A DNA stretch of 44,814 nucleotides from a virus: positions 1 through 44,814 of IMG/VR virus record IMGVR_UViG_3300031566_000091, one strand, 5' to 3'. Within the stretch, counting starts at the first letter, position 1; each line of letters starts with the position of its first letter. Position numbers and translations under genes: made by a program. Below are positions 3,753 to 43,002 of this stretch, piece after piece. The notes under the pieces are model-generated. The model made no database searches and was not told the origin of the DNA. It saw only the letters and a program-made list of their open reading frames with translations.

Positions 3753-3761
3753 TATAAATAC
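3753..3761 (-). promoter_or_regulatory. Late-promoter-like motif GTATTTATA
   Basis: Reads GTATTTATA on the coding strand, 15 nt before the start codon of the 1085-aa virion gene. It is one of fifteen copies in this window, all in the same orientation relative to the gene they precede. Confidence 0.6.
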
Positions 3762-4111
3762 TTGCAGATTAATTTTAAATGATCTACTTTTACCTTGCCA
3801 AGAAATTTTCATTTCTCAAAACAAAGTAATTATTTTGCTTTTACAAACCTTTTATTGGAAAATGGATAATGGAAAAATTTTTTTAAGAGGTTTAAAATAA
3901 GAGGAATCTTATAAAAAGAAGAAAAGTTAGGAAATAACTAAACATAGTATTCCCTTAATAGAAGTTTGGGTTTTAATTTGAAAAATTGAATCAACAAATA
4001 TTGTTACTTTGTTCTTTGTCCTGTAAGGCGAAGAAAAAGTTTTGCTTAATTAAAATTTCTTTTGTTATTTTACTTTTAGTTCTCTATTTTATTATTGCTG
4101 TGGAACTACTG

Positions 4112-4148
4112 AGAAAAAACTTGTCAAAGTTACAAAAAATTTTTGACA
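4112..4148 (-). terminator. Putative terminator after the tape measure gene
   Basis: On the minus strand TGTCAAA (4148-4142) pairs with TTTGACA (4128-4122) around a 13-nt loop, and is followed by AGTTTTTTCTC. It lies about 45 nt past the tape measure stop codon, in the right orientation for an intrinsic terminator. The stem is short and AT-rich. Confidence 0.45.
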
Positions 4149-4194
4149 TTTCCAAATGTTTTCACTATTAATTTGATGAAATATTAATATTTTT

Positions 4195-6702
4195 TTATTG
4201 ATTACTCTTACCACCTCTTGTATCTTGTTGAATACTAGCAGCTAATCTTGAATTATATGTTTTATTAAATATTTTATTTCCATCAAGTTCTAATGTTATA
4301 TTATTATTTAATGCAACATCTTTATTATCAAATTCAATTTTTAAAGGTTTTTTTAATAAATTAGATAATTCAGAAAACATACCACTACCACTAATATTTG
4401 CTTTAGATATTGATTGAATAGCATTTGCAATTGCAATATAATCTTCTTTATTTCCACTCATTACAGTATTAATTTGTTTAAAACCTTCACCTACTTGTGC
4501 AATTGCACCAGCATGTTTTGCAATTGTTGACATTACATTAGAAAAAACAAATAATCCAACAGCTCCAGCAGTAAAACCTAACATTGCTAATGATAATGCA
4601 CCAACACCAATAGCCAAATTTTGCATATCATCACCAGCACCTTTACCTGATTCAACTAATTTTGATAACCCTTCGGCCATGTTACCAATACCTGTTGTAG
4701 CTAAATAAATACCACCACCAACCATAACAACAGCAGCACCTAATGCTAATAAACCCCATGCTCCTGCTTGTGCTGTTGTTGCTACTAATCCTAAACCAAT
4801 GGCAGCCGCTGGGAATGTTATAGCTAACGTTGTTGCAATAGTTTCTAATGATTTGGCCTGTTCTGGTGTTAATTTACTCATTGAATCAGCCAATTTACTG
4901 ATTCCTTCAGCAGCCATTCCAATACCAGCACCAATACCAACAGCAGCTAAACCAACACCCGCACCCTTTCCCAAAGCTGCACCACCAGCACCTTTAATGG
5001 CTCTACCACCACCTCTTGATCTAGGTTTATATCCTCGTCCATCACCTCCACCACTGCTAAATAATCCCCCAACTCCTTTGAGTAATGATTTACCAGCACT
5101 TAATAAACTTGGAATGAAACCTTTAAATAAAAAACCAACTGTCATAAACATACCTGCAGCTTTTAAAAGTGTGGGATTATTTTTTGCCATTTCACCAATC
5201 CATTTTGTGAATTTTTCAACATATGGTCTAACAGTTGTTAAAACTTGATTTACTCCTTGAAGCATAGGTAATAATGTTGCTTTTAATTCTTCAATTGTTG
5301 CTTTAAATGCTTCATCGAATGTTTGTGAATTTTTTGCTCTTTCTTCAAGTGATTTTTTTTCTGATTCAAATGCATTTGCTTGTGTTGATGTAAGTGTTGC
5401 AACATCTTTCATATGTCCAGCAATCTGAACTTGAAATTTTCCTGATTGATTATCAAATATAGCAGCGCCTTCAATTAATTTTTTTTGTTCTTCAGATAAA
5501 CCCATTCCTTGCATTTGTTTTCGCATTTTTTGAATATCTGCCATTCTTAATGCTTGGTTGGTTAATTCTCCAGATTGCATTCCTAGTGATTTTTCAACTG
5601 AGGCTAATCTATCTCTATCTGCTGGACTAATAAATTTTTCAAAAGTACCATCACTCATTTTTCTAAATGTAACAACCCCCTTGGTCATTTCATTTATTTT
5701 TTCAGTAAATTTTGCTGGATCATTACGAGATAAGAATAATAATTCAAAAGGATCTGTTTTAGCAAATTCACCACCCATTACTTGTAATTGTGCTGCTAGG
5801 CCAATAGCACCCTCTAATGTTCTTGCTGTTTCTACTGAATTTAATGCTTGATTCATATCAATTTTCATTTTTTCAGAATACATAGCCATCTGAGCATATC
5901 CTTTAACACCTTGCTGAAAATTGAGTTTATTTAATGATTTAAAATTATCACTAACATTTTTTAAAACTTTGGTTGTATTTACACCCATTCTCTCACTAGT
6001 ATCAACAACACCTTGAACATATTGCATTGTTGATTTAGCATCGTAACCCATTAATTCAAATTGAGCACCCAATCTTGTAGCCTGTTCAACACCAAGACCA
6101 GTTCCCTTACCAATAGCATAAATATCCTGAACCATACTTGCAGATAAAACTCTCGCTCGTCCTGTTTCATCAGCATATCCTTGCATTATGTTTTGGACAT
6201 CTCCTAAATCACCACCTAATCTGGCAACATAAGCAGCAGAACCTTCAAAAGATGCTCTCATCATGTCAGCTTTTAATCCTGACATTCCTAAATTAAGTAT
6301 TGTGCTTTTAATTACTTTATCTGATTGCATTAAAAATTGCCAACCAGATTGTAATAGTTTATTTGTATTTTCTAATAATTTCGTAATTTGTTCTCTTCCA
6401 GTTTTCTCACCATACACACTTGATGTAATATTTGATTGTTTTTTTTCAATTACACCAAGTTGATCTTTTTGTTTTTTTGTTAAATTAATTGAATTACTTT
6501 CATAATCATTTTTTAATTGTAAATGTTCATTTTCAATTATTTGATTATTTGTAATAATTTCAGATAAAACTTTTTGTTTTTCAATTAATTCAAGATTACC
6601 AATATTTGTTCTTAACTTTTCTCTTAATCCTTGATTTTCTTTATCTAATAATTTAAGAAGTTCTATTCTTTGTTGTACATCACCAGTATTTTGTTTTGCC
6701 AT
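4195..6702 (-). CDS. Tail tape measure protein
   Basis: An 835-aa protein expected to fill the tail tube and set tail length (T4 gp29 role). The first ~110 residues are charged and coiled-coil-like. Residues about 140-430 carry the helical pattern typical of phage tape measures, for example LGMSGLKADMMRASFEGSAA, LGAQFELMGYDAKST and QVMGGEFAKTDPFELLFLS. A Gly/Arg/Ser-rich linker (about 550-575) leads into several long hydrophobic Gly/Ala segments (about 510-730, for example GLLALGAAVVMVGGGIYLA), which resemble the membrane-active segments of other tape measures. The C-terminus is polar. A late-type motif lies 23 nt upstream. The preceding gp26-like gene and 57-aa ORF fit the usual order of tail chaperone genes before the tape measure. 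Confidence 0.82.
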   Translation of the reverse strand: MAKQNTGDVQQRIELLKLLDKENQGLREKLRTNIGNLELIEKQKVLSEIITNNQIIENEHLQLKNDYESNSINLTKKQKDQLGVIEKKQSNITSSVYGEKTGREQITKLLENTNKLLQSGWQFLMQSDKVIKSTILNLGMSGLKADMMRASFEGSAAYVARLGGDLGDVQNIMQGYADETGRARVLSASMVQDIYAIGKGTGLGVEQATRLGAQFELMGYDAKSTMQYVQGVVDTSERMGVNTTKVLKNVSDNFKSLNKLNFQQGVKGYAQMAMYSEKMKIDMNQALNSVETARTLEGAIGLAAQLQVMGGEFAKTDPFELLFLSRNDPAKFTEKINEMTKGVVTFRKMSDGTFEKFISPADRDRLASVEKSLGMQSGELTNQALRMADIQKMRKQMQGMGLSEEQKKLIEGAAIFDNQSGKFQVQIAGHMKDVATLTSTQANAFESEKKSLEERAKNSQTFDEAFKATIEELKATLLPMLQGVNQVLTTVRPYVEKFTKWIGEMAKNNPTLLKAAGMFMTVGFLFKGFIPSLLSAGKSLLKGVGGLFSSGGGDGRGYKPRSRGGGRAIKGAGGAALGKGAGVGLAAVGIGAGIGMAAEGISKLADSMSKLTPEQAKSLETIATTLAITFPAAAIGLGLVATTAQAGAWGLLALGAAVVMVGGGIYLATTGIGNMAEGLSKLVESGKGAGDDMQNLAIGVGALSLAMLGFTAGAVGLFVFSNVMSTIAKHAGAIAQVGEGFKQINTVMSGNKEDYIAIANAIQSISKANISGSGMFSELSNLLKKPLKIEFDNKDVALNNNITLELDGNKIFNKTYNSRLAASIQQDTRGGKSNQ

Positions 6703-6725
6703 CTGTATTTGATTTTGTTAACATA

Positions 6726-6734
6726 TATAAATAC
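6726..6734 (-). promoter_or_regulatory. Late-promoter-like motif GTATTTATA before tape measure
   Basis: Reads GTATTTATA on the coding strand, 23 nt before the tape measure ATG and just past the stop of the 57-aa ORF. Confidence 0.6.
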
Positions 6735-6945: not shown

Positions 6946-7848
6946 CTAGATGTCTGGGGAAAAAAAATCCAGACCGATTGATAACGAGGCGTTAAATTTA
7001 AAGCCATCACTTGTTTTGAATTCATATGACATATCAACATCTGGTGAGACTTCTATGATTTTTTTTCTTATTGTATAAGCATCTAATGCTGGCATTGCAT
7101 CAACAAATCTTTCAATATATGATCTGTCCATATTATCATTTATTGATATAATGCTTGATTTTAATTTCATTGTACTATATCTTGAAAAATCTTCATTATA
7201 TGCTTCTTTTATTGATTCTGAATTTTTAAATATTTGATTATCATCACCAGAAGTTAATAAACGAAATTTAACTGTTTTTTTTCTCATTGGTATTTCAACT
7301 GAAAAATGACCATTTGCATCAGGTTGTTCTGTTACTTCCTTATATTTTAATTTTAATAAATCAACAGTTTCTTTAAAAACCGAACCATTTCTAGGATCAG
7401 TAACTTGAACAGTATAATTTGTACCATAGCTAGATGTACGAAGAAAAAGAATTATAGAATTTCTATCACCACTTAATAATTCTTCTGGATGAATTCCTTT
7501 AGTTTTTATTTTTCTTTTTAATAATAAGTCTAAAACTCTACCACTATCAATTAATGATGGTGTTGTCAATAAATCTTCATCTTCTGAGGTCATATATTCA
7601 ACATTAACTTCAGATATTCCATGAGAATAAAATAATCCTTTTGATGGTAAAGATACTATTTCATATGATGTCATTAAATCTGGATCAGTTTCTTTAGACA
7701 TTATATTTTCAAAATTTTGTGGTTTTGGTATTGATGCTGTTACAACAGTTTTTTTATTTTCATCAGTTACAACATTTTGTTGTTCTTTATATTTTTTTAA
7801 TACATCCGAAATGTTTTCTTTTTGTGGTATCTGTTCGTTTGAATCCAT
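6946..7848 (-). CDS. 26: gp26-like baseplate / tail assembly protein
   Basis: A 300-aa protein. After a polar 55-residue leader comes the pattern of the T4 base plate family that includes gp26: YEIVSLPSKGLFY (about 62-74), VEYMTSEDEDLLTTPSLI (about 83-100), ELLSGDRNSIILFLRTSSYG (about 123-142), and near the end FVDAMPALDAYTIRKKI, then SPDVDMSYEF and a terminal LDFFSP. T4-type relatives end with a similar FFWP-like motif. It precedes the tape measure, separated only by the 57-aa ORF. The codons for the terminal FF lie in a T8 run that could act as a -1 slippery site. A late-type motif lies 33 nt upstream. It may be a hub component, a tape-measure chaperone, or both. Confidence 0.62.
   Translation of the reverse strand: MDSNEQIPQKENISDVLKKYKEQQNVVTDENKKTVVTASIPKPQNFENIMSKETDPDLMTSYEIVSLPSKGLFYSHGISEVNVEYMTSEDEDLLTTPSLIDSGRVLDLLLKRKIKTKGIHPEELLSGDRNSIILFLRTSSYGTNYTVQVTDPRNGSVFKETVDLLKLKYKEVTEQPDANGHFSVEIPMRKKTVKFRLLTSGDDNQIFKNSESIKEAYNEDFSRYSTMKLKSSIISINDNMDRSYIERFVDAMPALDAYTIRKKIIEVSPDVDMSYEFKTSDGFKFNASLSIGLDFFSPDI
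6957..6970 (-). promoter_or_regulatory. Candidate -1 ribosomal frameshift site (T8 run)
   Basis: On the coding strand the 0-frame reads GAT TTT TTT TCC, a T-TTT-TTT heptamer four codons before the TAG at 6948-6946. Shifting back one base gives TTC CCC AGA CAT CTA GCA and so on, with no stop, straight into the ATG of the 57-aa ORF. No stimulatory structure was identified. The conserved FF codons alone could explain the T run. Confidence 0.4.
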
Positions 7849-7881: not shown

Positions 7882-7890
7882 GATAAATAC
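7882..7890 (-). promoter_or_regulatory. Late-promoter-like motif GTATTTATC before gp26-like gene
   Basis: Reads GTATTTATC on the coding strand, 33 nt before the start codon. The last base differs from the majority A/T. Confidence 0.5.
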
Positions 7891-7967: not shown

Positions 7968-8234
7968 ATGGGAAAAAAAATTTTAGTTATGTATATCGGT
8001 GTTGCAACAATTAGAAGTGAGGACATTGGTACATATACGGCTGAAATAGCTAAAAAAATATTACCAACAACATTTCATGGTGAAGTTATTATTATTCCAA
8101 TTCAATCTGTAGATACTAGAATTGAATGTATAAATCCAAAATATATTACTGAAACTGAATTAATTAAAGAAAATAATGAAATGTTAAAAAAATTAAAAGA
8201 ACAATTAGATTATCAGTCAAAATTATTAAAATGA
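7968..8234 (+). CDS. Conserved-looking 88-aa protein of unknown function
   Basis: An 88-aa protein starting MGKKILVMYIGVATIRSEDI. It has an alpha/beta-like core (a hydrophobic first strand, then VIIIPIQSVDTRIECINP) and a Lys/Glu-rich C-terminal helix. No membrane segment or catalytic motif is evident. Its last codons overlap the next gene by 4 nt (ATGA), so the two are translationally coupled. Only an imperfect GTATTAGT is seen 18 nt upstream, so its promoter is unclear. It opens the plus-strand operon that runs through the HAD-like and glycosyltransferase genes. Confidence 0.75.
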   Translation: MGKKILVMYIGVATIRSEDIGTYTAEIAKKILPTTFHGEVIIIPIQSVDTRIECINPKYITETELIKENNEMLKKLKEQLDYQSKLLK

Positions 8235-8968
8235 AAAAAATTAGAATAGGTATTGATATTAATGAAACATTAAGAGCCAGATGGTCACAATTTGATAGAT
8301 TTTTTGTTGAAGAATTTGGTGAAGATGGTATTCCTGATGAACCATATGTGTTTGATTTATTTAATGATTATCCTTGGAAAGATACTATTGAAGTTATAAA
8401 AGAATTAAAAGAACCTGAAGATATTCCAGATGACATTAATCCAAAACATTATCAAACAAATGATAAAGGAGAAGCCAATGCAGATTATTTGTTATTTAAA
8501 AAAGAAGAAAAAAAGAAATTAACAGCGAAAGAAATGTATAATCGATTCATGTATGAAGATTTTGTTTTCGAAATACATGGTACAGCCCCATTAATGTATG
8601 GTGGTATGGATTTAGATTTAAAGAAATTTTATTTAAAATATCGTAATTGTGTTGATTTTACATTATTATCACAAGAAAACGTATTTTCAATTCCATCTAC
8701 ATTATCTTTTCTTAGTAAAATGACAAGTAGATTTAATAATTATAGATTTGTTGAGAATAAAAAGGATATGTGGAAAGATATTGATTTATTAATAACTACT
8801 GATCCAGAAATTTTAGAGAAAGGGAGTCCTTTTTTAAAAAAAATAATTAAAGTAAGAAGACCATACAATGAAAATATTAAGGTTGGATCAATACAAATAT
8901 TACAAATTGCTGATTTAATAAATAATAAACAATTTGAAAAGATAATAAAATTTAAAAACAATAAATAA
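8231..8968 (+). CDS. HAD-like protein with altered motif I
   Basis: A 245-aa protein. The N-terminus IRIGIDINETLRARW (about residues 4-18) matches HAD-superfamily motif I (hhhhDxDxT) except that the second Asp is Asn (D9-x-N11). Phosphatase-type HADs use that Asp as the general acid/base, so the activity may be changed or lost. The middle (about 55-130) is a polar insertion; residues 150-245 look like the remaining Rossmann part (IDLLITTDPEIL, then a basic HAD motif-III-like region near KKIIKVRRPYN). It overlaps the upstream gene by 4 nt and ends one nt before the GT-B gene. Either a sugar-phosphate or nucleotide-related HAD acting with the two glycosyltransferases, or a non-catalytic fold, is possible. 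Confidence 0.55.
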   Translation: MKKIRIGIDINETLRARWSQFDRFFVEEFGEDGIPDEPYVFDLFNDYPWKDTIEVIKELKEPEDIPDDINPKHYQTNDKGEANADYLLFKKEEKKKLTAKEMYNRFMYEDFVFEIHGTAPLMYGGMDLDLKKFYLKYRNCVDFTLLSQENVFSIPSTLSFLSKMTSRFNNYRFVENKKDMWKDIDLLITTDPEILEKGSPFLKKIIKVRRPYNENIKVGSIQILQIADLINNKQFEKIIKFKNNK

Positions 8969-8969
8969 A

Positions 8970-10124
8970 ATGAGCGAAGATTTACTAAATAATGAAATTC
9001 AAAAAGTTGAATTAGAAAAAATTAATAAAATCAAACAATCGATTGATAATTTAAAAGAAAAAAAATCAAAATTTTTATTTGTAATTCCAGATTCAACAAC
9101 ACCTGTTGCATCTGTCTATGAAATATATTTTCATGCAACAACTGTGAAGAAAATGGGTTTTGATGTTACTATTTTAGTTGAAAAAGATGATTATGTTATA
9201 CCTAAATGGATTGAAAATAAATTAACAGATTTCAATCACATATCAATGAGTGATTCAAAACTAACGGTAGGTCCTGATTCTATAATGGTTATACCCGAAG
9301 TATATTCTAATGTTATGGAACAAACTAAAAATCTACCTTGTTTAAGAATAGGTTTGCTTCAATCTATTGATTATATGTATAATGCACTTATTCCGGGAAC
9401 AGATTGGTCAACATTTGGAATTCGGGATATTATAACAACATCACCAGTAATGAAAGAAATTGTTGAAATGTTATTTGGTAAAAAATTTAATGTTAAAACA
9501 TATCAAATTGGTATCCCTGATTATTTTGAAAAATCAAATTTACCAAAAAAACCAATTATTTCAATTGTTGGAAGAAATCCAAATGAAATTTCTAAATTAA
9601 TTAAGATGTTTTATAATAAATATCCACATTATAATTGGGTGATGTTTGATACTATGTTAACAAAAAGTAAACCACCACAACAAATGAGAAGAATTGATTT
9701 TGCTGATAGATTAAAAGAACATTTCGCTGCAGTTTGGATTGACAGAATATCTTCATTTGGAACATTTCCTTTAGAGTGTATGCAAAGTGGTGTAATACCT
9801 ATTTGTTTAAAACCAGATATCATGCCAGAATATTTAATTAATAGAGATGAAAATGGTGTTGCAATAAATGCTAAAAATAATTCTGGAATTTGGACAGATA
9901 ATTTTTATGATTTACCAATTCATATTGGTGAAATATTAACTAAATTCATTGATGATTCAATTCCTAATGAAATTTATGATAACATGGATGAGATTGCATT
10001 GAAATATAATCAAGAAACATCTGAAAAAACATTAATTTCAATTTATGAAGAGTTTGTTAATCAAAGAATTTTGATGCTTGAAAGTGCAATTCCTGTTGAA
10101 AATAATAATGATAATTTAAAATAA
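8970..10124 (+). CDS. GT-B fold glycosyltransferase
   Basis: A 384-aa protein whose layout fits a two-domain GT-B glycosyltransferase. After a charged N-terminal helix, the first Rossmann-like domain begins near residue 32 (KFLFVIPDSTTPVASVYEIY) and the second near residue 190 (KKPIISIVGRNPNE). The donor-site region reads SFGTFPLECMQSGVIPICLK, then DIMPEYL (about 262-288), which is the family's Ex7E-like motif with the nearby Gly-Ile-Pro. The target could be a virion protein, phage DNA or a host surface sugar; nothing in the sequence decides this. It lies in an operon with a HAD-like gene and a second glycosyltransferase. Confidence 0.72.
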   Translation: MSEDLLNNEIQKVELEKINKIKQSIDNLKEKKSKFLFVIPDSTTPVASVYEIYFHATTVKKMGFDVTILVEKDDYVIPKWIENKLTDFNHISMSDSKLTVGPDSIMVIPEVYSNVMEQTKNLPCLRIGLLQSIDYMYNALIPGTDWSTFGIRDIITTSPVMKEIVEMLFGKKFNVKTYQIGIPDYFEKSNLPKKPIISIVGRNPNEISKLIKMFYNKYPHYNWVMFDTMLTKSKPPQQMRRIDFADRLKEHFAAVWIDRISSFGTFPLECMQSGVIPICLKPDIMPEYLINRDENGVAINAKNNSGIWTDNFYDLPIHIGEILTKFIDDSIPNEIYDNMDEIALKYNQETSEKTLISIYEEFVNQRILMLESAIPVENNNDNLK

Positions 10125-10953: not shown

Positions 10954-11700
10954 ATGAGAGTAAAAAAAACAAAACAATATTTTGCAGAAAAAGAAGAGCA
11001 AGCTGTAATCGATTATATTAATTCAGATTCATTAGAAGAGAAAAATAAAATATATAATGAAATCTTAATTGAACCATTTAAAATAATGATTGAATCAATA
11101 TTAAGATGTTATCCTATTCATATTGGATATTATGACATTAAAGAAGTTGAATCAAATGCATTAACTCATTTAATTGAGCATATGGTAAAATTTAAGCCAA
11201 ATACAATAACTAAATCTGGAAATAAAACAAAAGCATTTAGTTATTGTCAAACAATAATTAGAAATTATTATAAAGATCATAGTAAAAAGAGTTATATTGA
11301 AAAAACAATAAATCTATCTTATGATAATTATGTTGATGAATTAAACAATAAAAATGACTATATTTATGAACTTCACGATGAAAATAACAATCAATTAGAG
11401 GATCTTATTAATATGGTCATTAATAAAATTGAAATTAAAATAGAAGAAAATAATCTAAAAAAGATAGAAAATATTGTTGGCGATGCTATAATAAATATTC
11501 TTAAAAATTGGCATTTATTATTTTTGGAAGAAACACCAATGGGTAAATACAATAAACGTGTAACAAATAAATTTGCTAAAAATAAAATACTTTTGTTTTT
11601 AAAAGAACAAACAGGATTAACAACAAAAGAAATTAGAATTGGAATAAAACCATTTAAAGATATTTATCAGACTGAAAAAAATAATTATTTCGATTTATAG
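10954..11700 (+). CDS. 55: gp55-like late sigma factor
   Basis: A 248-aa protein with a reduced sigma-70 region-2 pattern like T4 gp55. An N-terminal helical part (about residues 20-75) is followed by FKPNTITKSGNKTKAFSYCQ, then TIIRNYYKDHSKKSYIEK (about 84-121), matching the AFSYF-x-TI...R signature of gp55 proteins in T4-type phages. In T4, gp55 directs host RNA polymerase with the sliding clamp to late promoters. The start chosen is the ATG at 10954; an earlier ATG at 10938 is out of frame. The gene sits among late structural genes and just before a late-type motif at 11701. It is the best candidate for reading the GTATTTATA elements. Confidence 0.72.
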   Translation: MRVKKTKQYFAEKEEQAVIDYINSDSLEEKNKIYNEILIEPFKIMIESILRCYPIHIGYYDIKEVESNALTHLIEHMVKFKPNTITKSGNKTKAFSYCQTIIRNYYKDHSKKSYIEKTINLSYDNYVDELNNKNDYIYELHDENNNQLEDLINMVINKIEIKIEENNLKKIENIVGDAIINILKNWHLLFLEETPMGKYNKRVTNKFAKNKILLFLKEQTGLTTKEIRIGIKPFKDIYQTEKNNYFDL

Positions 11701-11709
11701 GTATTTATA
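11701..11709 (+). promoter_or_regulatory. Late-promoter-like motif GTATTTATA
   Basis: Reads GTATTTATA immediately after the sigma gene stop and 18 nt before the 121-aa gene. It probably drives the 11728-14942 structural operon. Confidence 0.62.
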
Positions 11710-11727: not shown

Positions 11728-12093
11728 ATGAGGCCAACAAGAAAAAAATTAAAGTTTGATGAAGAAAGTGTAAACAATCTTCTTCAGGAAATTTATAATG
11801 ATAGTCATAATATAAAGGCTAGAATTACTAGATTATTTACCAAATGGGAAACTAAAGTTAAAGAAAATGGTGAAATTGCCGCACTGGGTGATCAAATTGT
11901 AAAATTAATTTCTGCCGAAGCAAAAAATCAAGATCAAAAAATAATGTTACTTAAATATTTAAAAGAAGTTGTTTTTGATAATAAGTCAGGAAACAATTCT
12001 GCTAAAAATTCTGAAGATAATGAATCTATTTCAGATGATAAAAGAAATGAACTAATTAGTATGGTTCAAAAATCTATGAATAATAAAAAATAG
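11728..12093 (+). CDS. Hypothetical 121-aa late protein
   Basis: A 121-aa, mainly helical, charged protein with a basic start (MRPTRKKLKFDEESVNNLL) and an acidic, low-complexity Asn/Ser linker (about residues 86-105). No motif is recognised. It is the first gene after a late-type motif and lies 4 nt before the 442-aa gene, in an operon ending with the gp5-like protein. This suggests a virion or assembly role. Confidence 0.65.
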   Translation: MRPTRKKLKFDEESVNNLLQEIYNDSHNIKARITRLFTKWETKVKENGEIAALGDQIVKLISAEAKNQDQKIMLLKYLKEVVFDNKSGNNSAKNSEDNESISDDKRNELISMVQKSMNNKK

Positions 12094-14958: not shown

Positions 14959-15048
14959 TAGAAAAATATTATAACAATTAATAATTTCTTTCGTATAATA
15001 AATAAAAAAACAATACCTTGGAAAGGTTTAATAAAACTATTTTATATT

Positions 15049-31441: not shown

Positions 31442-31456
31442 ACTCAATATTTTAAA

Positions 31457-31465
31457 TATAAATAC
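31457..31465 (-). promoter_or_regulatory. Late-promoter-like motif GTATTTATA before gp13-gp14
   Basis: Reads GTATTTATA on the coding strand, 15 nt before the preferred ATG of the gp13-like gene. Confidence 0.62.
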
Positions 31466-35310: not shown

Positions 35311-35355
35311 AAAAGATATTATTTGATTATATTATATGACCAAATAATATCTTTT
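35311..35355. terminator. Bidirectional 15-bp hairpin terminator overlapping the Mom/GIY-YIG stop
   Basis: AAAAGATATTATTTG (35311-35325) pairs perfectly with CAAATAATATCTTTT (35341-35355) across a 15-nt loop, then a T-rich run on the plus side. The last codons and the stop (35319-35321) of the minus-strand gene lie in the left arm. Confidence 0.7.
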
Positions 35356-36791
35356 CTTTTTTTATTTTTTGAACACCATCTAGAAATTGTTGATTGATTA
35401 ACATTTTCATATTTAGAAGCTTCTGCAGTTGATTCATATATTTTAATAATTTTATTTTCATTAGCATTTATTTTATAAACCATTTTACAAATAACTTCTT
35501 TTTGTTTGTTACTCAAACCCTGTTCAATTTTTGTTTTACTAATTTTATTTTTAGTTTCTTCATCTCGTGATCTACCTTTCCAATATTTTGATGATATTTC
35601 ACTTAAATATTTTCTTTCCTCGTCTGTTTTCAATTTTCCATATTTTTTTGCTTCTTCACTACCAGCAGAATAAATTCTTTTTTCTACCCATTCTTTAGAT
35701 TGTTTGATATTTAGATGGGATTTCGACATTTTATCTAATGTTTCCAATGCTGCAATAGCATTTCTACCACCTGCTTCAATATTATAACCAAAATTTTTAT
35801 CTGTTGTATTATATTCTAATATATATCTTATTTCTTTACTATTTAATTCATCAATTGTCTCTCCATTATCAATTACTTTAAATTCAAAATTTCCCCAACC
35901 ATATTTCTTAATTGAATTATTTAAATAATCATTTCCTTGACCATTTTTATAATCAGAAATTCTATCATTAATTCCTCTTATTGTTTGACCGATATATTTT
36001 TTATTATTAATTTTATTTGTTATCATATATATTATACCAATAATATCTCTGTCTTTCTTAGGATAAGGTTGAATATAATTTTCAAACGCTTTTAAATATT
36101 TCTGATTTTTCATTTTATTATCCATAAAATGAAAATATCTTCTTTTTCTATATTGATTAACAAATTGTGCATTTGGGTAATGTTTCAGGATAATATCTTT
36201 TTTCATTGTGCCTAATTTATTTCTTACCCATCTACTACCTCTTAATTTACCATCAATATATACTGAAAATCTTTTACTTTCTTTATTATGATGATAATTT
36301 CCAGTCATCATACCAATATAAGTCCAATTTAATGATTGGTATATTGTACCAATTTCACCAGCAGCAGGATCTACTGTTGCAGTAATAATTCTATATTGAG
36401 TATTATTTTTTATCCATTTACATGCTTTTGATATAAAAAAAGATGCTGAATTTTTTGGTGTCCACCATAAACAAACACCACGACTCAAAAGCAATAATTT
36501 TCCTGAAAAACAATATTTATCCCAAACACCAGTATTTTCTGCATAATCATTACTAAATACTAATACACCACCAAGATATTGTTTATCATTAACATTGAAG
36601 TAAAGTCCAAAACAATATTTAACAATAAATGGCATTGATTTTAACCATTCATATTCAATAATTATTTTTGTTGCAATACTTTTATCAATTATTTTAATCT
36701 CAGTATTTTTTAAACTAATATCATTTAAATCAAAATCAATATTTTCTAATTGTGATTTTTCTTTTCTTATTTTATATTGATAAGCTTCCAT
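35319..36791 (-). CDS. Fusion of Mom-like DNA-modification acyltransferase and GIY-YIG nuclease
   Basis: A 490-aa protein with two complete parts. Residues 1-248 fit the Mom/GNAT family: FGLYFNVNDKQYLGGVLVFS (about 61-80), LLLSRGVCLWWTPKNSASFF, and a D141PAAGEIGTIY151 block where Mom keeps an Asp and a Tyr ten residues apart, ending in YIQPYPKK like natural Mom C-termini. Residues 249-490 are a GIY-YIG homing endonuclease: GIIYMITN (252-259), YIGQT (266-270), an Arg at 272 or 277, Glu320 and GYNIEAGG, then a basic region and an IENR1-like repeat (IKIYESTAEASKYENVNQST). Mom of phage Mu modifies adenine to block restriction. The fusion is read-through in one frame with no stop or frameshift. 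Whether it is a functional pair or an endonuclease that landed at the gene end is unknown. Confidence 0.7.
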   Translation of the reverse strand: MEAYQYKIRKEKSQLENIDFDLNDISLKNTEIKIIDKSIATKIIIEYEWLKSMPFIVKYCFGLYFNVNDKQYLGGVLVFSNDYAENTGVWDKYCFSGKLLLLSRGVCLWWTPKNSASFFISKACKWIKNNTQYRIITATVDPAAGEIGTIYQSLNWTYIGMMTGNYHHNKESKRFSVYIDGKLRGSRWVRNKLGTMKKDIILKHYPNAQFVNQYRKRRYFHFMDNKMKNQKYLKAFENYIQPYPKKDRDIIGIIYMITNKINNKKYIGQTIRGINDRISDYKNGQGNDYLNNSIKKYGWGNFEFKVIDNGETIDELNSKEIRYILEYNTTDKNFGYNIEAGGRNAIAALETLDKMSKSHLNIKQSKEWVEKRIYSAGSEEAKKYGKLKTDEERKYLSEISSKYWKGRSRDEETKNKISKTKIEQGLSNKQKEVICKMVYKINANENKIIKIYESTAEASKYENVNQSTISRWCSKNKKRKDIIWSYNIIK

Positions 36792-36803
36792 AACACATAC
36801 TTT

Positions 36804-38438
36804 TTAATTTATTGTTAATTCATATTTAAATTTACCACAATCCCAAATTCTATCATATCCAAGTTCTTGCATCATTTCCCATTCGGTCTTATTTTCATCA
36901 TAAATGTCTGGAAACTTTCTTTTTATTGATGATTTTCCATAGTTGAATTTATGTTCTCTTGTGCCTCTATGTAATTTTCTATCATAATAAGAATAATCTG
37001 GTGGTAATATTTTTATTAGCGTAAATCCTAGTTTAACATATAAATTATTATTTGGATTAGGTGTCCATCTTCTATCTGCAAAACTTATTATTGATGTTGG
37101 ATTATGTCGGTTTATAAAATGTTTTAATAATCTATTACCAATACCTGAAATAATAACATTATTTTTTACACAAAATCTTGTTAATTCGAAAATTGTATTA
37201 TTATGTCTTTTTTCTTTATTCATATTTCTTTTATTATTAAAAGACATGACAGCAATTAAATCGTTGTTATAATATGCTCCTAAGACAATACCCCCATTAA
37301 TTTTTCCTTGTATGTGATTTTCATTTAGAAATTTATTTGAAGTATTAATTGGTGTCTCAATAATTTTACATTTTCTTGCATGTAAAACAATGGAATTATT
37401 TTTATTTATAATATGTAATATCTTCGACTTTACCAATTCCCCTTTTAAATCCCATTCATCTTCAAAAATTTGATACAGATCGATATTTTTTTCACTAGCT
37501 AATTTGGTTTTATTTAAATGATAGTTAAAATCTTTTTTACCATATTTTTCGGTATGATATAAATTACCATTATATTCAATACCAACATTATAATCTGGTA
37601 AATATAAATCAATTTCATTACCGTTTAATATTTTTCTAACCGACTGTTTAACAAGTACACCATTGTCAACAATAAAATCTTTAATTTCATTTTCAGCTTT
37701 TGATGTTTTAGATTTTTTCGTTAACATGTTTGTTCTAGTAACAGATTTTTTTAATTTTTCATGAGTAGAAGAGGACACCATTAAATCACCATATTTTAGT
37801 CTATAGTCATTAACAGTTATATTATGTTTTTTTAGATGTTTATCGTTAATTATTCTGAGTTTTTTTCCACATATTTTACATGATAAACCATCTTTAATTG
37901 GTATTGATAATTTAAAATACTTTGTATCACCAACAAAAGTATTGAGGTGTTCTTTAATTGTTATATTATGATTATTTTTTAAATGTTTTTCATATGCACC
38001 AGACAGATTATTAATGTCTTCAGTTGTCCATTCACAATAATGACATTTTTTTATTTCTTTATTTTTTCTATATTCAAATGTAAAATATTCGTCATACCAA
38101 AATTTACCTGTTGAATACTCCTTTGATTTACGTACATATTTACTGTTTTTTGATTCATCTGGATATTGTTCAAATACAATATTTGTTAATATTCCAGATT
38201 TGTTTGTATAATCATCATATTCTTTTTTTGTTTTATTACAAATTGCTACCATATAGTATCCATCTTTTTGTGGATAATTAATTGATATTTTTTGATCATA
38301 ATTATATGAATTTACTAATTTTTGTATAACAGTAAATGAATATCCATACTCATCTACCAATTTTCTCAATGAAACACCAGATATTGATTTTTCATAGATT
38401 TCTTTTTTTTGTGTATTAGAAATAATTAATTTATCCAT
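36804..38438 (-). CDS. Homing endonuclease with HTH, two zinc fingers, VSR-like nuclease and GNAT-like domain
   Basis: A 544-aa protein. In order: a helix-turn-helix-like N-terminus (about 8-45), a zinc finger C132-x2-C135...H152-x4-H157, a second C187-x2-C190...H201-x3-H205, then a VSR/very-short-patch-like nuclease (NEIDLYLP with D277, VGIEYNG with E288, H295, and QIFEDEW near 324-329). The C-terminal part (about 355-485) is GNAT-like (GAYYNNDLIAVMSFNN, ELTRFCVKNNVIISGIGNRL, SIISFADRRW, LYVKLGF). This architecture is familiar in free-standing phage homing endonucleases. It sits between the Mom/GIY-YIG gene (12 nt downstream) and the major capsid gene. A late-type motif lies 34 nt upstream. 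Confidence 0.75.
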   Translation of the reverse strand: MDKLIISNTQKKEIYEKSISGVSLRKLVDEYGYSFTVIQKLVNSYNYDQKISINYPQKDGYYMVAICNKTKKEYDDYTNKSGILTNIVFEQYPDESKNSKYVRKSKEYSTGKFWYDEYFTFEYRKNKEIKKCHYCEWTTEDINNLSGAYEKHLKNNHNITIKEHLNTFVGDTKYFKLSIPIKDGLSCKICGKKLRIINDKHLKKHNITVNDYRLKYGDLMVSSSTHEKLKKSVTRTNMLTKKSKTSKAENEIKDFIVDNGVLVKQSVRKILNGNEIDLYLPDYNVGIEYNGNLYHTEKYGKKDFNYHLNKTKLASEKNIDLYQIFEDEWDLKGELVKSKILHIINKNNSIVLHARKCKIIETPINTSNKFLNENHIQGKINGGIVLGAYYNNDLIAVMSFNNKRNMNKEKRHNNTIFELTRFCVKNNVIISGIGNRLLKHFINRHNPTSIISFADRRWTPNPNNNLYVKLGFTLIKILPPDYSYYDRKLHRGTREHKFNYGKSSIKRKFPDIYDENKTEWEMMQELGYDRIWDCGKFKYELTIN

Positions 38439-38472: not shown

Positions 38473-38481
38473 CATAAATAC
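38473..38481 (-). promoter_or_regulatory. Late-promoter-like motif GTATTTATG before homing endonuclease
   Basis: Reads GTATTTATG on the coding strand, 34 nt before the endonuclease ATG, just after the capsid terminator. The last base deviates from A/T. Confidence 0.5.
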
Positions 38482-38582: not shown

Positions 38583-40247
38583 TTACTGTAGGTCACCAAT
38601 TCCGAATGTTTGAAGTCCATCGCAGAAGATACGACCATAGTAACGGTTAAGAACCATTTTCTTTGCGTAACGGGTTATAATACCACGTATTGGTGTAAAA
38701 TCAAATGGATTGTACATTACAGGAGTAAGCTGCATAGGCACGTATGGCGCATAAATGTAGCCGGTCTCTAAGATTGAAGTACCTTTATGTCCTATTAACA
38801 CAGTGTTAGCAGGTGCATATGGATCACGATATACAATATATCTTCCACTTAAAGTACCAATTTTCTCAATACCCATGTTATATTTATCTTGCTCTGGAGA
38901 AGCATTAGAAACATGGAAATACTCAAGGTCATCAAATACTGCACTTACTTCAGGAGATACAACTACCCAAGAAGCACCACCCCTAAGAGTTGCTTTATGG
39001 ATTTGAGCAGAAATCTGATTGATTTTAGTAACCAATGTTTGATTCCAGTCTTTTTGTACACCATAATAAGTATTAGTACCTTTTCTAAGACCATTATAGT
39101 CCCAACGAGCAGTCCAAGCAGCACCTCTACGAAGGTCACGTAAAATTTCACGGTCAACTTCAGCAGCCATTTGCTCAGAAAGCAATGCAGTTAATTCAGC
39201 TTCTGCGTCAATGTTATGGAAAGCACTAACGTCTTGAGCCAATTCAGGAGTCCAAACTGCTCTCATTTTACGAGTTTCAACAGAAACTGTAACTTGGTCA
39301 AGAACGAAACTAACTTCAGCCATTCTTGAATCTTCTTCCATATCACTATAAATGTTATATGAAAAAGTAAATGCAGGAGTTGAAGCAGCACTCAATGCTT
39401 GATAACCATTAGTACCAGCATAAGAAAGATCTACCATTAATTCTAATTGACCAGTTTTACTAACAATTGCTTGTCCGTATTTTTGAACTTTTACGTTAAA
39501 TGGTATAGAACTACCTGAAATAATGTTTGCACTAGTATAAGGAGCAGCAGCAGTGAAATTAACATCTGAATAAAGCTTTAAACTAGCAAGGAATGTTTCA
39601 GTGTCCATTGGAGCACCAGCAGGTCCAATTAATTTACCTTCATATGTTGTACTAAATCCACTAAGGATAATTCTAAGAATAGAATCCCCAGTAACATAAG
39701 CAACAGGTTGATTGGCAGTACCAGTAATAACAGTAATATCACCTTTTGAACGGTCAAATAATGAAGTTCCTTCTTCACCATATTCAGTTGCATAAAATGC
39801 ATCATATAATGAACGAGTTTCAAATTGAGTTCTAGCTGATGAAGCTAAAGTTGCTGCATTTTGATATGCACCATTTGGTGATGTATGATCAGTTCCAGCA
39901 GGACTTACTCTTTCAGAAGTCTTTGGATTGATGTAATATAATTTACCAATTGGTAAATTCAGAGCCTGTACAGATACGATGTCATTTGCTAACAATTTAG
40001 CAAATACTCTACGGATAACAGGGAAAGCCACTGTTTCAAATTGTCCGCTAGATGCAGAATCTGTAGATTCATTTATCATATAAGATAATTGGTTCTCAAA
40101 TAATTGAGCACAGTTTTCTCTTACGTTTCCAGTAAGACCTTCTAATAGACCAATTTTATCCCAACGATTAGTTGTTATTTCTCTTTGTTCACGAAGTTGT
40201 TTTAATCCAATATTACCAACTTCAGCACTTTCAGTTAAAAATCCCAT
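38583..40247 (-). CDS. 23: Major capsid protein (gp23)
   Basis: A 554-aa T4 gp23-type protein. The N-terminal region LFENQLSYMINESTDSASSG QFETVAFPVIRRVFAKLLAN and IVSVQALNLPIGKLYYINPK matches the family well. The C-terminal part reads SGRYIVYRDPYAPANTVLIG and YAPYVPMQLTPVMYNPFDFT, then RGIITRYAKKMVLNRYYGRI, also typical. An I58-N59-E60/S61 sequence fits the gp21-type (I/L)-x-E cleavage rule near the position used in T4 gp23. The codon use is less AT-biased than the neighbouring genes, as expected for the most abundant virion protein. It is transcribed with the scaffold gene from the motif at 42003. Confidence 0.92.
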   Translation of the reverse strand: MGFLTESAEVGNIGLKQLREQREITTNRWDKIGLLEGLTGNVRENCAQLFENQLSYMINESTDSASSGQFETVAFPVIRRVFAKLLANDIVSVQALNLPIGKLYYINPKTSERVSPAGTDHTSPNGAYQNAATLASSARTQFETRSLYDAFYATEYGEEGTSLFDRSKGDITVITGTANQPVAYVTGDSILRIILSGFSTTYEGKLIGPAGAPMDTETFLASLKLYSDVNFTAAAPYTSANIISGSSIPFNVKVQKYGQAIVSKTGQLELMVDLSYAGTNGYQALSAASTPAFTFSYNIYSDMEEDSRMAEVSFVLDQVTVSVETRKMRAVWTPELAQDVSAFHNIDAEAELTALLSEQMAAEVDREILRDLRRGAAWTARWDYNGLRKGTNTYYGVQKDWNQTLVTKINQISAQIHKATLRGGASWVVVSPEVSAVFDDLEYFHVSNASPEQDKYNMGIEKIGTLSGRYIVYRDPYAPANTVLIGHKGTSILETGYIYAPYVPMQLTPVMYNPFDFTPIRGIITRYAKKMVLNRYYGRIFCDGLQTFGIGDLQ

Positions 40248-40283: not shown

Positions 40284-41966
40284 TTACCTCTTTTCAACGT
40301 ATTTAATAATTTCTCTTACTCTTTTAAGATGGTCATTACTTGCATACGCAGTTTTTTCTATTACTTCATCGAGTTTTTGTTTTGAAGATGGTTGTATTGA
40401 GGTCGATACTTTATTTTCAATACTCTCTGAAATAGTTTTTTTCTTGGTGTCTTTCATTTCAGTTAAGAAAGATTGATATTTTTTTTGTGAATTTGCAATT
40501 GTATCAATTTTCTTAAATTCGTTAATTATTGTAATTTTATCTTCTTGAGTTAACGCCAAATCTTCATTAATAAATAAGTTATTAACATTTGCAAGATTTG
40601 TGTTAAAAATTGCCATTTCTTTTAGTTGGTTTTTATATTTTTGAAGAGCATTTTTATATCCTTCAACTAATTCGTTAACAGATTTTTTGAATTTTTTACC
40701 ATCATTTAATTGTTTGGTAATTTTTTTGTTTTCTTCAATTAATCTGACTATTTTTTTTCGAGACTCTTGGAAATTTTCTGGTGATTGATCTTTTTCTATT
40801 TTGCTTAGATTTTTTGGGTTTGGATTATGACCTCTACTTGCCATATTTCTTCTTTTAGCATAATCAACTCCATGTATTTCATCTAATTCTTCATCAGAAC
40901 CCATAAACTGATCGACATCATCGTCAGTAATTGCGTTTTCTTTATACATTTCGTCAATTTCTTGTTCAATTGCTCCCAAATCTACTTCTAAATTTTCATC
41001 ATCATCATTTCCAATTTCAATCTCCTCATCATCACCAAGTGATTTAATGATTTGATCAAGTTTCTCTCTTAGTCCAACTAAGTCGTTTAATGCGGCATCA
41101 TCACTGTTATTATCTAGATTTTCATCATTAACGTCTATTTCATCATTTTCTATTTCATCGTTTTCAATTTCGTTGTTTTCTACTTCATCGTTTTCGATTT
41201 CGTTGTTTTCTACTTCTTCTTCTTCACCCAAACGATGTCTTCCTTTTGCAGCAAAAGTTGTTGAAGCATCTTTAACTGCTTGTGGTGCATATGTTAGTTT
41301 GTTACCACTTGTTCTTAAAGTACCACCATTATTTTCAGCATATTGATTTAAAATTGCTAATTTATCTTCGGGTGGTGTTGATTTTGCTATTCTTCCAATA
41401 ATTCCCATATTAGGATTTGTTAAGATATTTTGAAAAGCTTTATTAAAAAGTGTTTGAATACCATTAACATCACTTGGATCAAGTTGTTTTATTTTCGAAC
41501 TAAGGTTGTCACCAAATAATTCGTTTAATTCACCTTCCAAATCTTCCATATTAGAAATTTCATTTTCAATCTCATCTAAGGTAATAATTTCGTCATCTTC
41601 TTCTGCGTTTTCTAAAGCAGTACCAACATTACTAATATCAAGTTCTGTTATGTCAAATTCTTCTATTTGAATTGGCAATTCAGTTTCATTAATTTTTTCT
41701 GTTTTTTTTGTATTTTTTTTCATAACAGACTCATTTTCTTTTAAATTAATATTATTTTCTAATGTGGTTTCAGTTTCCACAGTTTCTTCGACCTTATTAT
41801 AGCCTTTAGTTTTTTTGTTAGTTAATTCTTTTTTTAATAAATTATTGAATTTATCTGGAAATTCCTCTGCTAATTTTTTTTTAGCATTAACATCAGCCGC
41901 ATTCATAATTTCTTTAGAATTTAATATGGCTTCTTTTAGTATCGATTTGTTTTTATCGTCTTTCAT
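40284..41966 (-). CDS. 22: Prohead scaffold protein (gp22-like)
   Basis: A 560-aa, very acidic protein between the protease and capsid genes, the normal place of T4 gp22. It has charged N-terminal coils, a pentapeptide-like E-(I/V)-E-N-(D/N) repeat (about residues 250-278), an acidic central region and long helical, Lys/Gln-rich C-terminal coils ending in a basic tail (ASNDHLKRVREIIKYVEKR). T4 gp22 is about 270 residues, so this one is roughly twice as long. Several I/L-x-E sites could be cut by the gp21-like protease. It is driven by a late-type motif 36 nt upstream and continues into gp23. Confidence 0.72.
   Translation of the reverse strand: MKDDKNKSILKEAILNSKEIMNAADVNAKKKLAEEFPDKFNNLLKKELTNKKTKGYNKVEETVETETTLENNINLKENESVMKKNTKKTEKINETELPIQIEEFDITELDISNVGTALENAEEDDEIITLDEIENEISNMEDLEGELNELFGDNLSSKIKQLDPSDVNGIQTLFNKAFQNILTNPNMGIIGRIAKSTPPEDKLAILNQYAENNGGTLRTSGNKLTYAPQAVKDASTTFAAKGRHRLGEEEEVENNEIENDEVENNEIENDEIENDEIDVNDENLDNNSDDAALNDLVGLREKLDQIIKSLGDDEEIEIGNDDDENLEVDLGAIEQEIDEMYKENAITDDDVDQFMGSDEELDEIHGVDYAKRRNMASRGHNPNPKNLSKIEKDQSPENFQESRKKIVRLIEENKKITKQLNDGKKFKKSVNELVEGYKNALQKYKNQLKEMAIFNTNLANVNNLFINEDLALTQEDKITIINEFKKIDTIANSQKKYQSFLTEMKDTKKKTISESIENKVSTSIQPSSKQKLDEVIEKTAYASNDHLKRVREIIKYVEKR
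41133..41217 (-). repeat. 15-nt tandem repeat encoding E(I/V)EN(D/N) units
   Basis: About six imperfect 15-nt units in the scaffold gene encode alternating EVENN/EIEND. The third positions differ among copies (GAAATC, GAAATT, GAAATA), showing drift with the protein pattern kept. Confidence 0.65.
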
Positions 41967-42002: not shown

Positions 42003-42011
42003 TATAAATAC
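42003..42011 (-). promoter_or_regulatory. Late-promoter-like motif GTATTTATA before scaffold-capsid operon
   Basis: Reads GTATTTATA on the coding strand, 36 nt before the scaffold ATG and downstream of the zinc-ribbon gene. Confidence 0.62.
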
Positions 42012-42072
42012 GTACTTTTCAGGAAAAAGCATAATAAATAATGAAAAGTCGTTTAATTTTTAATTTCATATA

Positions 42073-42213: not shown

Positions 42214-42221
42214 TATTTTAA

Positions 42222-42929
42222 TTAATTCAATAGAAAATTATTTAATGCTTTTGAAATTTTATTTTCAAAAATATTATTTGTTTGTTTTATTTGATTTTCA
42301 GAAAAATTATTGCTTTTATTATTAACTGGAAAAAGATAAGCTCCCGGAGTACTTGGTGTTGCAACCAAATCAAATCCAATTAATTCAAAATCGTCTTGTA
42401 CTAAATTTTTACCATCAATTTCTTTTAATGTTCCAACACCTCTTGAAGAAATACCTAATTTAATTTCATTTTGTAAATAGTTTAAAATTTTATCACCAAT
42501 TACAGAAGCAATTCCAAATTTTAAAAATCCTTTGGTAACAATTAATTTTAATTGACCATATAAAATATTTTCATTATCACCCGTACCCCACCACATTTTT
42601 ACTATTTTATGTGATATGTTTTGAAGAGATATTATTGAACTTTCTGGATGATCAGCCTCAGAGACAGCACTATTATTATCAATTAATTTTTGATATTCAT
42701 TAGCTTGTGGAATTAAAACTTCTTTTGGGTATATTCTACCATTTTTATTTTCAATACCCCATTTTTGTAAAACACAATTAATTAGTATTGGTTCATCAAT
42801 TTTAAATTCATAATTTTCGTTGATTTTTTCAATAAGGGATCTATTGTCAAGATTAATATCGATATAACCAGCATCGTGTTCGATTAAGATACCAAAACCA
42901 GTTTCATTTTTTCCTAATATATTGCTCAT
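42222..42929 (-). CDS. 21: Prohead core protease (gp21)
   Basis: A 235-aa protein of the T4 gp21 protease family. The probable catalytic His94 lies in SEADHPESS, and the nucleophile is S161 or S162 in LGISSRGVGTL. Conserved surroundings are QKWGIENKNGRIYPKEVL (55-72), SHKIVKMWW and FDLVATPSTPGAYLF (186-200). It cuts scaffold and capsid proteins at (I/L)-x-E sites during head maturation. The C-terminal 30 residues are Asn-rich and may be removed. The gene order gp21, small protein, gp22, gp23 matches T4 head genes. A variant late-type motif lies 22 nt upstream. Confidence 0.85.
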   Translation of the reverse strand: MSNILGKNETGFGILIEHDAGYIDINLDNRSLIEKINENYEFKIDEPILINCVLQKWGIENKNGRIYPKEVLIPQANEYQKLIDNNSAVSEADHPESSIISLQNISHKIVKMWWGTGDNENILYGQLKLIVTKGFLKFGIASVIGDKILNYLQNEIKLGISSRGVGTLKEIDGKNLVQDDFELIGFDLVATPSTPGAYLFPVNNKSNNFSENQIKQTNNIFENKISKALNNFLLN

Positions 42930-42951
42930 ATGATTTAATTTCTTTTTTGAA

Positions 42952-42960
42952 TATAAATAG
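42952..42960 (-). promoter_or_regulatory. Late-promoter-like motif variant CTATTTATA before gp21
   Basis: Reads CTATTTATA on the coding strand, 22 nt before the protease ATG. The first base is C instead of the usual G. Confidence 0.5.
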
Positions 42961-42993
42961 TTTATTTTTTATAAAATGGTTTTTTCTTTCATG

Positions 42994-43002
42994 GTATTTA
43001 TT
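42994..43002 (+). promoter_or_regulatory. Late-promoter-like motif GTATTTATT
   Basis: Reads GTATTTATT, 16 nt before the ATG of the large structural gene at 43019. Confidence 0.58.

Follow-up and report, generated by a model that had tools for sequence, protein, structure and literature searches.

A conserved TATTTAT element as the probable late promoter of a T4-like lineage of large phages, with a distant relative of gp55 as candidate reader

The DNA analysed here, hereafter called the window, is a viral contig of 44,814 bases from IMG/VR (IMGVR_UViG_3300031566_000091; about 26% G+C), which carries T4-type virion genes, namely those for tail sheath, tube, baseplate hub and wedge, gp23-type capsid protein and prohead protease. 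Judged by the capsid protein, two named phages stand nearest to it at 32% identity each, Flavobacterium phage immuto and Microcystis phage Mel-JY01, and Rhodothermus phage RM378 is more distant (28.5% identity); the recorded hosts are Flavobacterium for immuto, a cyanobacterium for Mel-JY01 and Rhodothermus for RM378. Our subject is a short element found upstream of genes in the window, the box TATTTATA with a preceding G or C, together with the gene at 10954-11700 (plus strand), whose 248-amino-acid (aa) product is a putative gp55-like sigma factor and the proposed reader of the element. An earlier note on this DNA had listed 15 copies of the element and had described it as a late-promoter element that is the reverse complement of the T4 late promoter.

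All 15 copies are present on the strands and at the positions listed, and lie 3-52 nucleotides (nt) before start codons, as had been claimed. On the minus strand, GTATTTATA occurs at 3753-3761 (15 nt before gene 480-3737), 6726-6734 (23 nt before gene 4195-6702, without a downstream AAA), 17145-17153 (35 nt before the tail tube gene, 16621-17109), 26073-26081 (19 nt before gene 25286-26053), 31457-31465 (9 nt before a TTG or 15 nt before an ATG start of gene 30323-31447) and 42003-42011 (36 nt before gene 40284-41966, which in turn precedes the major capsid gene, 38583-40247). The same strand carries GTATTTATC at 7882-7890, 33 nt before the baseplate hub gene (6946-7848), GTATTTATT at 20010-20018, 52 nt before the tail sheath gene (17216-19957), the variant GTATTTATG at 38473-38481, 34 nt before a homing endonuclease gene (36804-38438), and the variant CTATTTATA at 42952-42960, 22 nt before the prohead protease gene (42222-42929). 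On the plus strand, GTATTTATA is found at 11701-11709, where it abuts the stop codon of the sigma gene and stands 18 nt before gene 11728-12093, at 20240-20248 (15 nt before gene 20264-22495) and at 23274-23282, only 4 nt before gene 23287-24465, an arrangement that would yield a leaderless or nearly leaderless mRNA. The remaining two plus-strand copies are GTATTTATT, at 23103-23111, which is the 3-nt case and precedes a 46-aa open reading frame (ORF; 23115-23255), and at 42994-43002, 16 nt before an ORF (43019-44812) that leaves the contig end.

Chance is an improbable source of these copies, as the earlier note had argued: GTATTTAT(A/T) has 16 matches in the window against 5.3 expected, and none of 100 shuffled sequences reached 16. 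The exact GTATTTATA occurs ten times, nine of them sense-upstream of a start codon at 4-36 nt, although the stretches within 60 nt sense-upstream of starts make up 3.3% of the strand-positions (binomial P 4e-13). The list of copies was a selected one, in that it omitted four of the 16 GTATTTAT(A/T) matches, those without a gene behind them (4704, 24357, 33360 and 43057, of which 24357 is an exact GTATTTATA); what it concluded about position and orientation nevertheless holds. A matrix built from 486 sites of the relatives only, when run on the window, returned ten best matches that were all on the list, and it gave 9, 13 and 17 matches above scores of 13, 11 and 9, versus 1, 4 and 10 in the reversed sequence; the copy at 6726 was not among the matches above 9. 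The bare core TATTTATA is not over-represented in the window (22 occurrences versus 18.9 expected, a count reached by 28 of 100 shuffles), so that the signal consists of the flanking base together with position and orientation.

The relatives used for comparison came from a scan of viral contigs with the capsid protein, from which the best 80 of 150 relatives were taken, 14 of these 80 lying on contigs of 200-365 kb. The large relatives (numbered with a G below) are IMG/VR contigs, and three of them were chosen for their size. Genes were called as greedy longest ATG ORFs of at least 60 aa and were matched across genomes by best match, so that some pairs (e.g. ribonucleotide reductase) may not be orthologs. 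When 9-mers in the 60 nt before genes were ranked, with no motif supplied to the program, GTATTTATA was the most over-represented upstream 9-mer in G010, G001 and the window, and in G009 it came second to AGTATTTAT, the same motif shifted by one base. Out of all occurrences of GTATTTATA, those upstream of genes numbered 45 of 78 in G010, 50 of 80 in G009, 33 of 46 in G001 and 9 of 10 in the window; the ranking in the pieces of LR756508 and LR756511 gave a weak motif or none. Individual copies are conserved as well. The ortholog of gene 480-3737 is preceded by GTATTTATA in G010 and by GTATTTATT in G009 and G001, that of gene 4195-6702 has GTATTTATA 22-23 nt upstream in all three, and the protease gene of G010 and G009 is preceded by CTATTTATA, as in the window. 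For gene 23287-24465 the element stands 4 nt upstream in G009 and 17 nt upstream in G001, and was not found in G010.

Orientation was counted in same-strand intergenic regions, a restriction that removes the ambiguity of divergent gene pairs. The 1,200 distinct regions came from G010, G009, G001 and the window as well as from 77 of the 80 capsid loci, the remaining three being parts of those genomes. The earlier note had proposed such a count, with equal frequencies of the two orientations as the outcome that would speak against it; GTATTTATA was found 217 times in sense and 6 times in antisense. In 80 loci around the sigma gene, which partly overlap the capsid-locus set, the ratio was 58:1. 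The base before the box matters in the window family, since among the 1,200 regions the strong sense bias extended to CTATTTATA (47:1) and not to TTATTTATA (22:33) or ATATTTATA (28:23), G or C being the bases that precede the biased forms. The last base of the box may vary, with sense-to-antisense ratios of 21:1 for GTATTTATG and 41:12 for GTATTTATT in the same regions.

How the box relates to that of T4 can be read in two ways. The description of it as the exact reverse complement of the T4 box is correct for TATTTATA and TATAAATA, and thus for some members of the group, but it fails for RM378, whose box TTATTTAA is not such a complement. In the same direction, TATAAATA and TATTTATA agree at six of eight positions, with TAT--ATA in common and the two middle bases different. 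We therefore read the element as the T4 box with two middle bases changed and the orientation retained, and regard the reverse-complement relation as a near-coincidence of an almost palindromic sequence. When the T4 late region was treated by the same method, its 27 intergenic regions gave sense-to-antisense counts of 5:0 for TATAAATA and 0:5 for TATTTATA, which indicates that the method works and that the phage groups differ. On the coding strand of the relatives it was TATTTATA, and not a T4-type box (TATAAATA or NATAAATA), that stood in sense. Related boxes occur in the isolated phages and their kin: ATATTTATA (70:1) and CTATTTATA (10:1) in immuto-like loci, ATATTTATA (9:0) in Mel-JY01 and TTATTTAA (11:1) in RM378. 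The core common to the boxes of the window family, the immuto-like loci, Mel-JY01 and RM378 is TATTTA.

The earlier note had also placed nearly all copies before virion genes. In the window, PHROGs puts a name to five of the 15 downstream genes, four of them virion genes (baseplate hub, tube, sheath and prohead protease) and the fifth a homing endonuclease gene, and the other ten are without a name; across the relatives the link to virion genes is clear. Eight virion genes and 16 replication or metabolism genes, named by annotation or by PHROGs, gave 24 and 22 matches in G010, G009 and G001, and (G/C)TATTTAT was sought within 100 nt of those that head a transcription unit, defined by a divergent neighbour or a gap of at least 30 nt. 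It precedes 17 of 20 virion heads versus 1 of 12 replication or metabolism heads. We rely on this set rather than on a first one (42 of 48 versus 1 of 12 heads), which had partly been picked from window genes already known to carry the element. Among all heads of the three relatives, 61 of 226, 87 of 251 and 59 of 279 have the element and 27, 23 and 14 have its reverse complement, the shadows of divergent pairs included. The virion heads without it are two capsid genes and one baseplate wedge gene; the two capsid genes follow the ortholog of window gene 40284 at gaps of 31 and 38 nt, and that ortholog carries the element in G010 and G001. In immuto, TATTTATA precedes the terminase, portal, sheath, tape measure and other virion genes as well as some unnamed genes.

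Aligned sites have the form A-(G/C)-TATTTAT-A, followed by two free bases and by A at positions 11-13. Upstream of the base adjoining the box, no position exceeds 0.34 bits in G010, G009 and G001, and there is no clear -35-type box. Because the A-richness found before starts could mimic the A triplet, sites were binned by their distance to the start codon: where the start codon is 23-40 nt away (n=95), positions 12 and 13 are A in 95% and 91% of sites. The As thus stay in phase with the element, as would be expected of a transcription start, and the triplet, 3-5 nt after the box, served as a proxy for the start in comparison with the box-to-start spacing of T4, which is about one helical turn. 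Distances from element to start codon have a main peak at 13-19 nt and another at 35-36 nt. Among 338 distinct sites, an ATG lies less than 3 nt from the element in one and at 3-5 nt in nine, and the latter spacing would place the start codon at or beside the transcription start. RM378 has the same plan, TTATTTAA-nnn-AAAA, and in 9 of its 30 sites the ATG follows the box by 6 nt. Genes with an upstream gap of less than 30 nt seldom carry the element (5 of 625, the searched stretch being short there), and pooled same-strand counts in this test were 97 sense versus 3 antisense. That is, the element sits at the heads of transcription units.

The sigma gene came to light through a remote similarity. 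A gp55 profile (phrog_234) gave six matches on 18 records, one of them the weak match immuto26A_153 (E 0.008), which phmmer connected with the window ORF 10954-11700 at E 1e-8 and 6e-8 in the two directions. Two further phrog_234 matches proved to be stop-interrupted frames, the one in G010 lying within a long ORF on the other strand, and the remaining three, in G003, G004 and G009, belong to a small gp55-like protein treated below as a rival reader. A search with phrog_12791 and a direct BLASTP comparison of the window sigma with T4 gp55 gave no match, and the window sigma falls into no family in PHROGs at E 0.001 or at Pfam cut-offs. A sequence search of the PDB returned only T4 RNase H at E of about 0.1-0.2, which was judged a chance match. 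A profile built from eight diverse members (profile A5) finds the window-type sigma in 19 of 20 records, some of which had supplied rows of the profile, and did not find it in G016, a 149-kb contig. A further scan of viral contigs gave 408 candidate stretches, of which 402 encode relatives of the window sigma; the protein type is also present in Mel-JY01 and LR756508, and the RM378 homolog is Rm378p020 (E 2e-12 with a profile excluding it). Within IMG/VR, searches for relatives with the RM378 sigma returned only RM378 itself and those with the Mel-JY01 sigma none. Of the 80 homologs fetched, 79 are 237-293 aa long and 25 are 288-293 aa long (L197, L199, L202 and others). In L202, the one of these longer homologs inspected in an alignment, about 40 residues are inserted just before a conserved KAFSYCQT helix.

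Several comparisons suggest that this protein is remotely related to T4 gp55. With hhalign, diverse sigma alignments matched gp55 collinearly at E 3e-5, and when 16 families common to these phages, the window-type sigma included, were compared with gp55, that sigma scored 40.7 and the next family 19.6. Among the ORFs of immuto, Mel-JY01, RM378 and pieces of LR756508, the one best matched by the gp55 profile is that of immuto (E 7e-4). Profile A5 also reaches ordinary sigma-70 region 2 proteins in G006 (E 2e-6) and G010 (E 2e-4), at the same places as matches to PF04542. The predicted structure of the window sigma has a predicted local distance difference test score (pLDDT) of 73 and a predicted template modelling score (pTM) of 0.42, and the model of its residues 11-114 resembles sigma region 2: with VIA-align they match SigB at Z 9.1 (root mean square deviation, rmsd, 2.8 over 91 residues), sigmaE at Z 8.7 and RpoS region 2 at Z 8.0, the rmsd range being 2.8-3.3 and such Z values being ambiguous for helical models, and sigma factors make up 26 of the first 30 rows. 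The element is also found next to the sigma gene itself. TATTTAT lies at most 80 nt after this gene in 78 of 78 immuto-like loci, as does (G/C)TATTTAT in 37 of 77 window-family loci.

In the large relatives and the window, genes that are mostly small are preceded by a second class of promoter-like sites, AAC-N16 (or N17)-CGTATA. Its N16 form lies within 100 nt sense-upstream of a gene in 20 of 22 cases in G001, 29 of 36 in G009, 7 of 10 in G010 and 2 of 2 in the window (14973-14997, plus strand; 23035-23059, minus strand), and its N17 form in 19 of 24 cases in G010 and 11 of 14 in G001. By sequence this class resembles the promoters of extracytoplasmic function (ECF) sigma factors, presumably with a likeness to the sigmaW promoters of B. 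subtilis. Genes for ECF-type proteins with sigma-70 region 2 are present at G001:182377, G001:238206, G009:62884, G009:292646, G010:188780 and G010:260272, and in each of the three relatives one of the pair adjoins the DNA primase gene and the other lies in or near a cluster of small early-type genes; these proteins are candidate readers of the second class. In immuto, 17 mostly small genes have GTTG 20 nt before TATATTTAGG or TATATTTAGA, a further class that is close to the host type (-33 TTTG, -7 TAnnTTTG; PMC6847099). One cluster of small genes, G010:183124-186655, has host-type promoters (a TTTGG/TTAGG-like box, then TACCTTTG) and adjoins an ECF-type sigma gene; it is a possible immediate-early region.

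Taken as a whole, these data are best explained if a T4-like lineage of large phages uses the element as its late promoter and has it read by a phage sigma distantly related to gp55, a view to which we assign a probability of roughly 0.8. The promoter would consist of an 8-bp -10-type box, TATTTATA, with G or C before it and with an A triplet two bases after it at the likely transcription start, and would stand upstream of virion units. The phage sigma encoded at 10954-11700 would bind host RNA polymerase, which would then open TATTTATA promoters late in infection. Computation shows the position, orientation and conservation of the element, the class of the genes served, the spacing to the A triplet, the region-2-like model of the sigma and its remote similarity to gp55 and to ordinary sigma factors; we infer the transcription start at the element, its lateness and the role of the window sigma as reader. 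Of the three explanations that the earlier note had offered, that of a gp55-like sigma reading a changed element is thus the best supported, with the protein as a candidate for the reader.

A number of observations weigh against this reading. An alignment of the window family alone (A1) showed no similarity to gp55 in hhalign, and a Foldseek search with the sigma model gave no match under E 0.001. VIA-align warns that a Z below about 13 may be due to chance for helical models, and the two rows that head its list, with rmsd 15 and 22, are crosslinking models of ribosomal proteins with polymerase subunits. The A triplet is weaker at sites more than 40 nt from the start (68% and 56% at positions 12 and 13, n=34), and the Mel-JY01 sites are without it. 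Both capsid gene heads lack an element of their own. Eight of the nine large relatives encode two further clear sigma factors (PF04542), and 3 of 20 records encode a small gp55-like protein of 108-114 aa (G003:279624-279923, G004:98362-98703 and G009:23421-23684), which by profile resembles gp55 more closely than the window sigma does (hhalign E 5e-7; phrog_234 down to E 2e-9); where present, either type could be the reader. Lastly, a T4-type clamp was not found, so that activation may not copy that of T4. The clamp search covered the nine large relatives, immuto, Mel-JY01, RM378 and T4: the gp45 type (phrog_223) matched in one of these 13 records, T4 (gp45 itself at 3e-86), and the DnaN type (PF02767) in none, although a diverged clamp could escape such a search. 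This suggests, short of proof, that the late transcription of these phages proceeds without a phage clamp.

Another phage sigma might read the late promoter, either an ECF-type one (the four translated measure 175-217 aa) or the small gp55-like protein. In favour of this are the small protein of the three records named above and the PF04542 matches above cut-off in 9 of 12 records (eight large relatives with two each, RM378 with one), but we consider it unlikely. In immuto and Mel-JY01, TATTTATA elements occur although neither phage has a small protein or, at E 0.1, a PF04542 match. The window-type sigma is the only one shared by all, which favours it as the reader. G014 is likewise without a PF04542 match and yet has 48 copies of GTATTTATA, the small protein was not found in 17 of 20 records, including the element-rich G001 and G010, and the AAC-N16/17-CGTATA class suits a two-box sigma better. 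Still less probable is a promoter read by the unmodified primary sigma of the host as a degenerate form of the Bacteroidota -7 element TAnnTTTG. The two boxes have the same length, lie at a similar distance from the start and agree at four of six defined positions, but position 6 is A in all sites (as set by the search) and position 8 is A in 72% of the 486 sites, instead of T and G. G010 and immuto moreover carry TAnnTTTG-like promoters with an upstream box elsewhere, and a like element occurs in Mel-JY01, a phage recorded from a cyanobacterium; the element therefore appears to follow the sigma and not the host.

The other two explanations of the earlier note fare worse. An RNA-level signal in late mRNA leaders, such as a translation enhancer or a processing site, would fit the nearness to start codons and the two distance peaks, but it is very improbable, given that short-gap genes rarely carry the element and are translated all the same (with the caveat given above on the stretch searched), that the conserved As are in register with the element and not with the start codon, and that 9 of the 338 sites stand 3-5 nt before an ATG, which is very close for a leader element. 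The notion that T4-type TATAAATA promoters lie on the opposite strand and fire away from the genes draws on the exact reverse complementarity with the T4 box, and is contradicted by the counts to the point of being scarcely credible: such promoters between same-strand genes would transcribe the preceding gene in antisense in 217 of 223 cases, sense TATAAATA upstream of genes is the rare orientation in two sets of the relatives' loci (sense to antisense 11:65 and 12:83), and T4 itself has its box in sense.

If the element is a late promoter read by the gp55-like sigma, it can be set beside known systems. In T4, late promoters have a -10-type box but no -35 box; gp55 reads them, and activation comes from gp33 and the clamp gp45 (PMC2988020, PMC7892883). 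Shared with it are the single 8-bp -10-type box, the virion units, the lack of a -35 box and an AT-rich stretch downstream; the differences are the box TATTTATA with its preceding G or C and downstream A triplet, in place of TATAAATA, and a sigma that is longer than gp55 and different in its C-terminal half. The late box is given as TATAAATA for T4 and KVP40 and as NATAAATA for the cyanophages S-PM2 and Syn9 in the available part of PMC2984593; like the phages studied here, these cyanophages are T4-like and have a late box upstream of structural genes, but they retain an ATAAATA core, g33 and g45 (PMC2984593), whereas the core here is TATTTATA. Large gp23-type phages with sigma factors of their own are also known among the group 2 jumbo phages, some of Bacteroidetes, whose minimal or complete sigma factors are thought to redirect host RNA polymerase; the accessible text of PMC7824862 describes no promoter element for these sigmas and defines the group by a family B DNA polymerase, whereas immuto has family A polymerase genes. 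With the Bacteroidota primary-sigma promoter (-33 TTTG, -7 TAnnTTTG) the late element shares an AT-rich 8-bp box a few bases from the start; unlike it, it has TATA in place of the TTTG end and no conserved upstream box. In F. johnsoniae, 4-5 nt separate the -7 element TAnnTTTG from the start, and the -33 motif has been found to be weak there too (PMC6847099). The element was not found described in the literature searched, which covered few subscription papers and preprints, so that its novelty is not proven.

Three further features of the window were observed. Upstream of the sigma gene, at 8231-10124 (plus strand), lie two genes, one with a weak glycosyltransferase match, whose best matches are near the sigma gene in G009, G010 and G001 too. 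Behind the second-class site at 23035-23059, a small lipoprotein-like gene at 22548-22994 (minus strand) has a Lipocalin_4 domain (Pfam 22.6 bits, cut-off 22.4). At 35319-38438 (minus strand), two nuclease genes adjoin the capsid gene, one encoding a fusion of a Mom-like protein with a GIY-YIG homing-endonuclease domain, the other being the homing endonuclease gene with its own GTATTTATG.

The element is real and strongly conserved, and it most likely represents a variant of the T4 kind of late promoter, with the window-type sigma as its likely reader. More tentatively, and at somewhat short of even odds, the lineage may represent a separate branch of T4-style late transcription, in which a diverged gp55-like sigma has moved to a TATTTATA box and works with no phage sliding clamp; in the large phages this would be the last step of a cascade that begins with host-type TAnnTTTG promoters and proceeds through AAC-N16/17-CGTATA promoters by way of ECF-type sigmas, and the box would follow the sigma lineage across phages whose recorded hosts are Flavobacterium, Rhodothermus and a cyanobacterium. 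Promoters that lack a -35 box and depend on the replication clamp for activation have their textbook example in the T4 late system. A changed box, a diverged sigma and no detected clamp make it possible to ask here by what route a sigma shifts its -10 specificity, and whether a phage clamp is dispensable for late transcription. The element can also serve as a late-promoter signature in the annotation of uncultured phages, of which it marks a large group, and it points to a sigma gene behind the annotation 'hypothetical', the only one this gene has in the three isolated phages immuto, RM378 and Mel-JY01.

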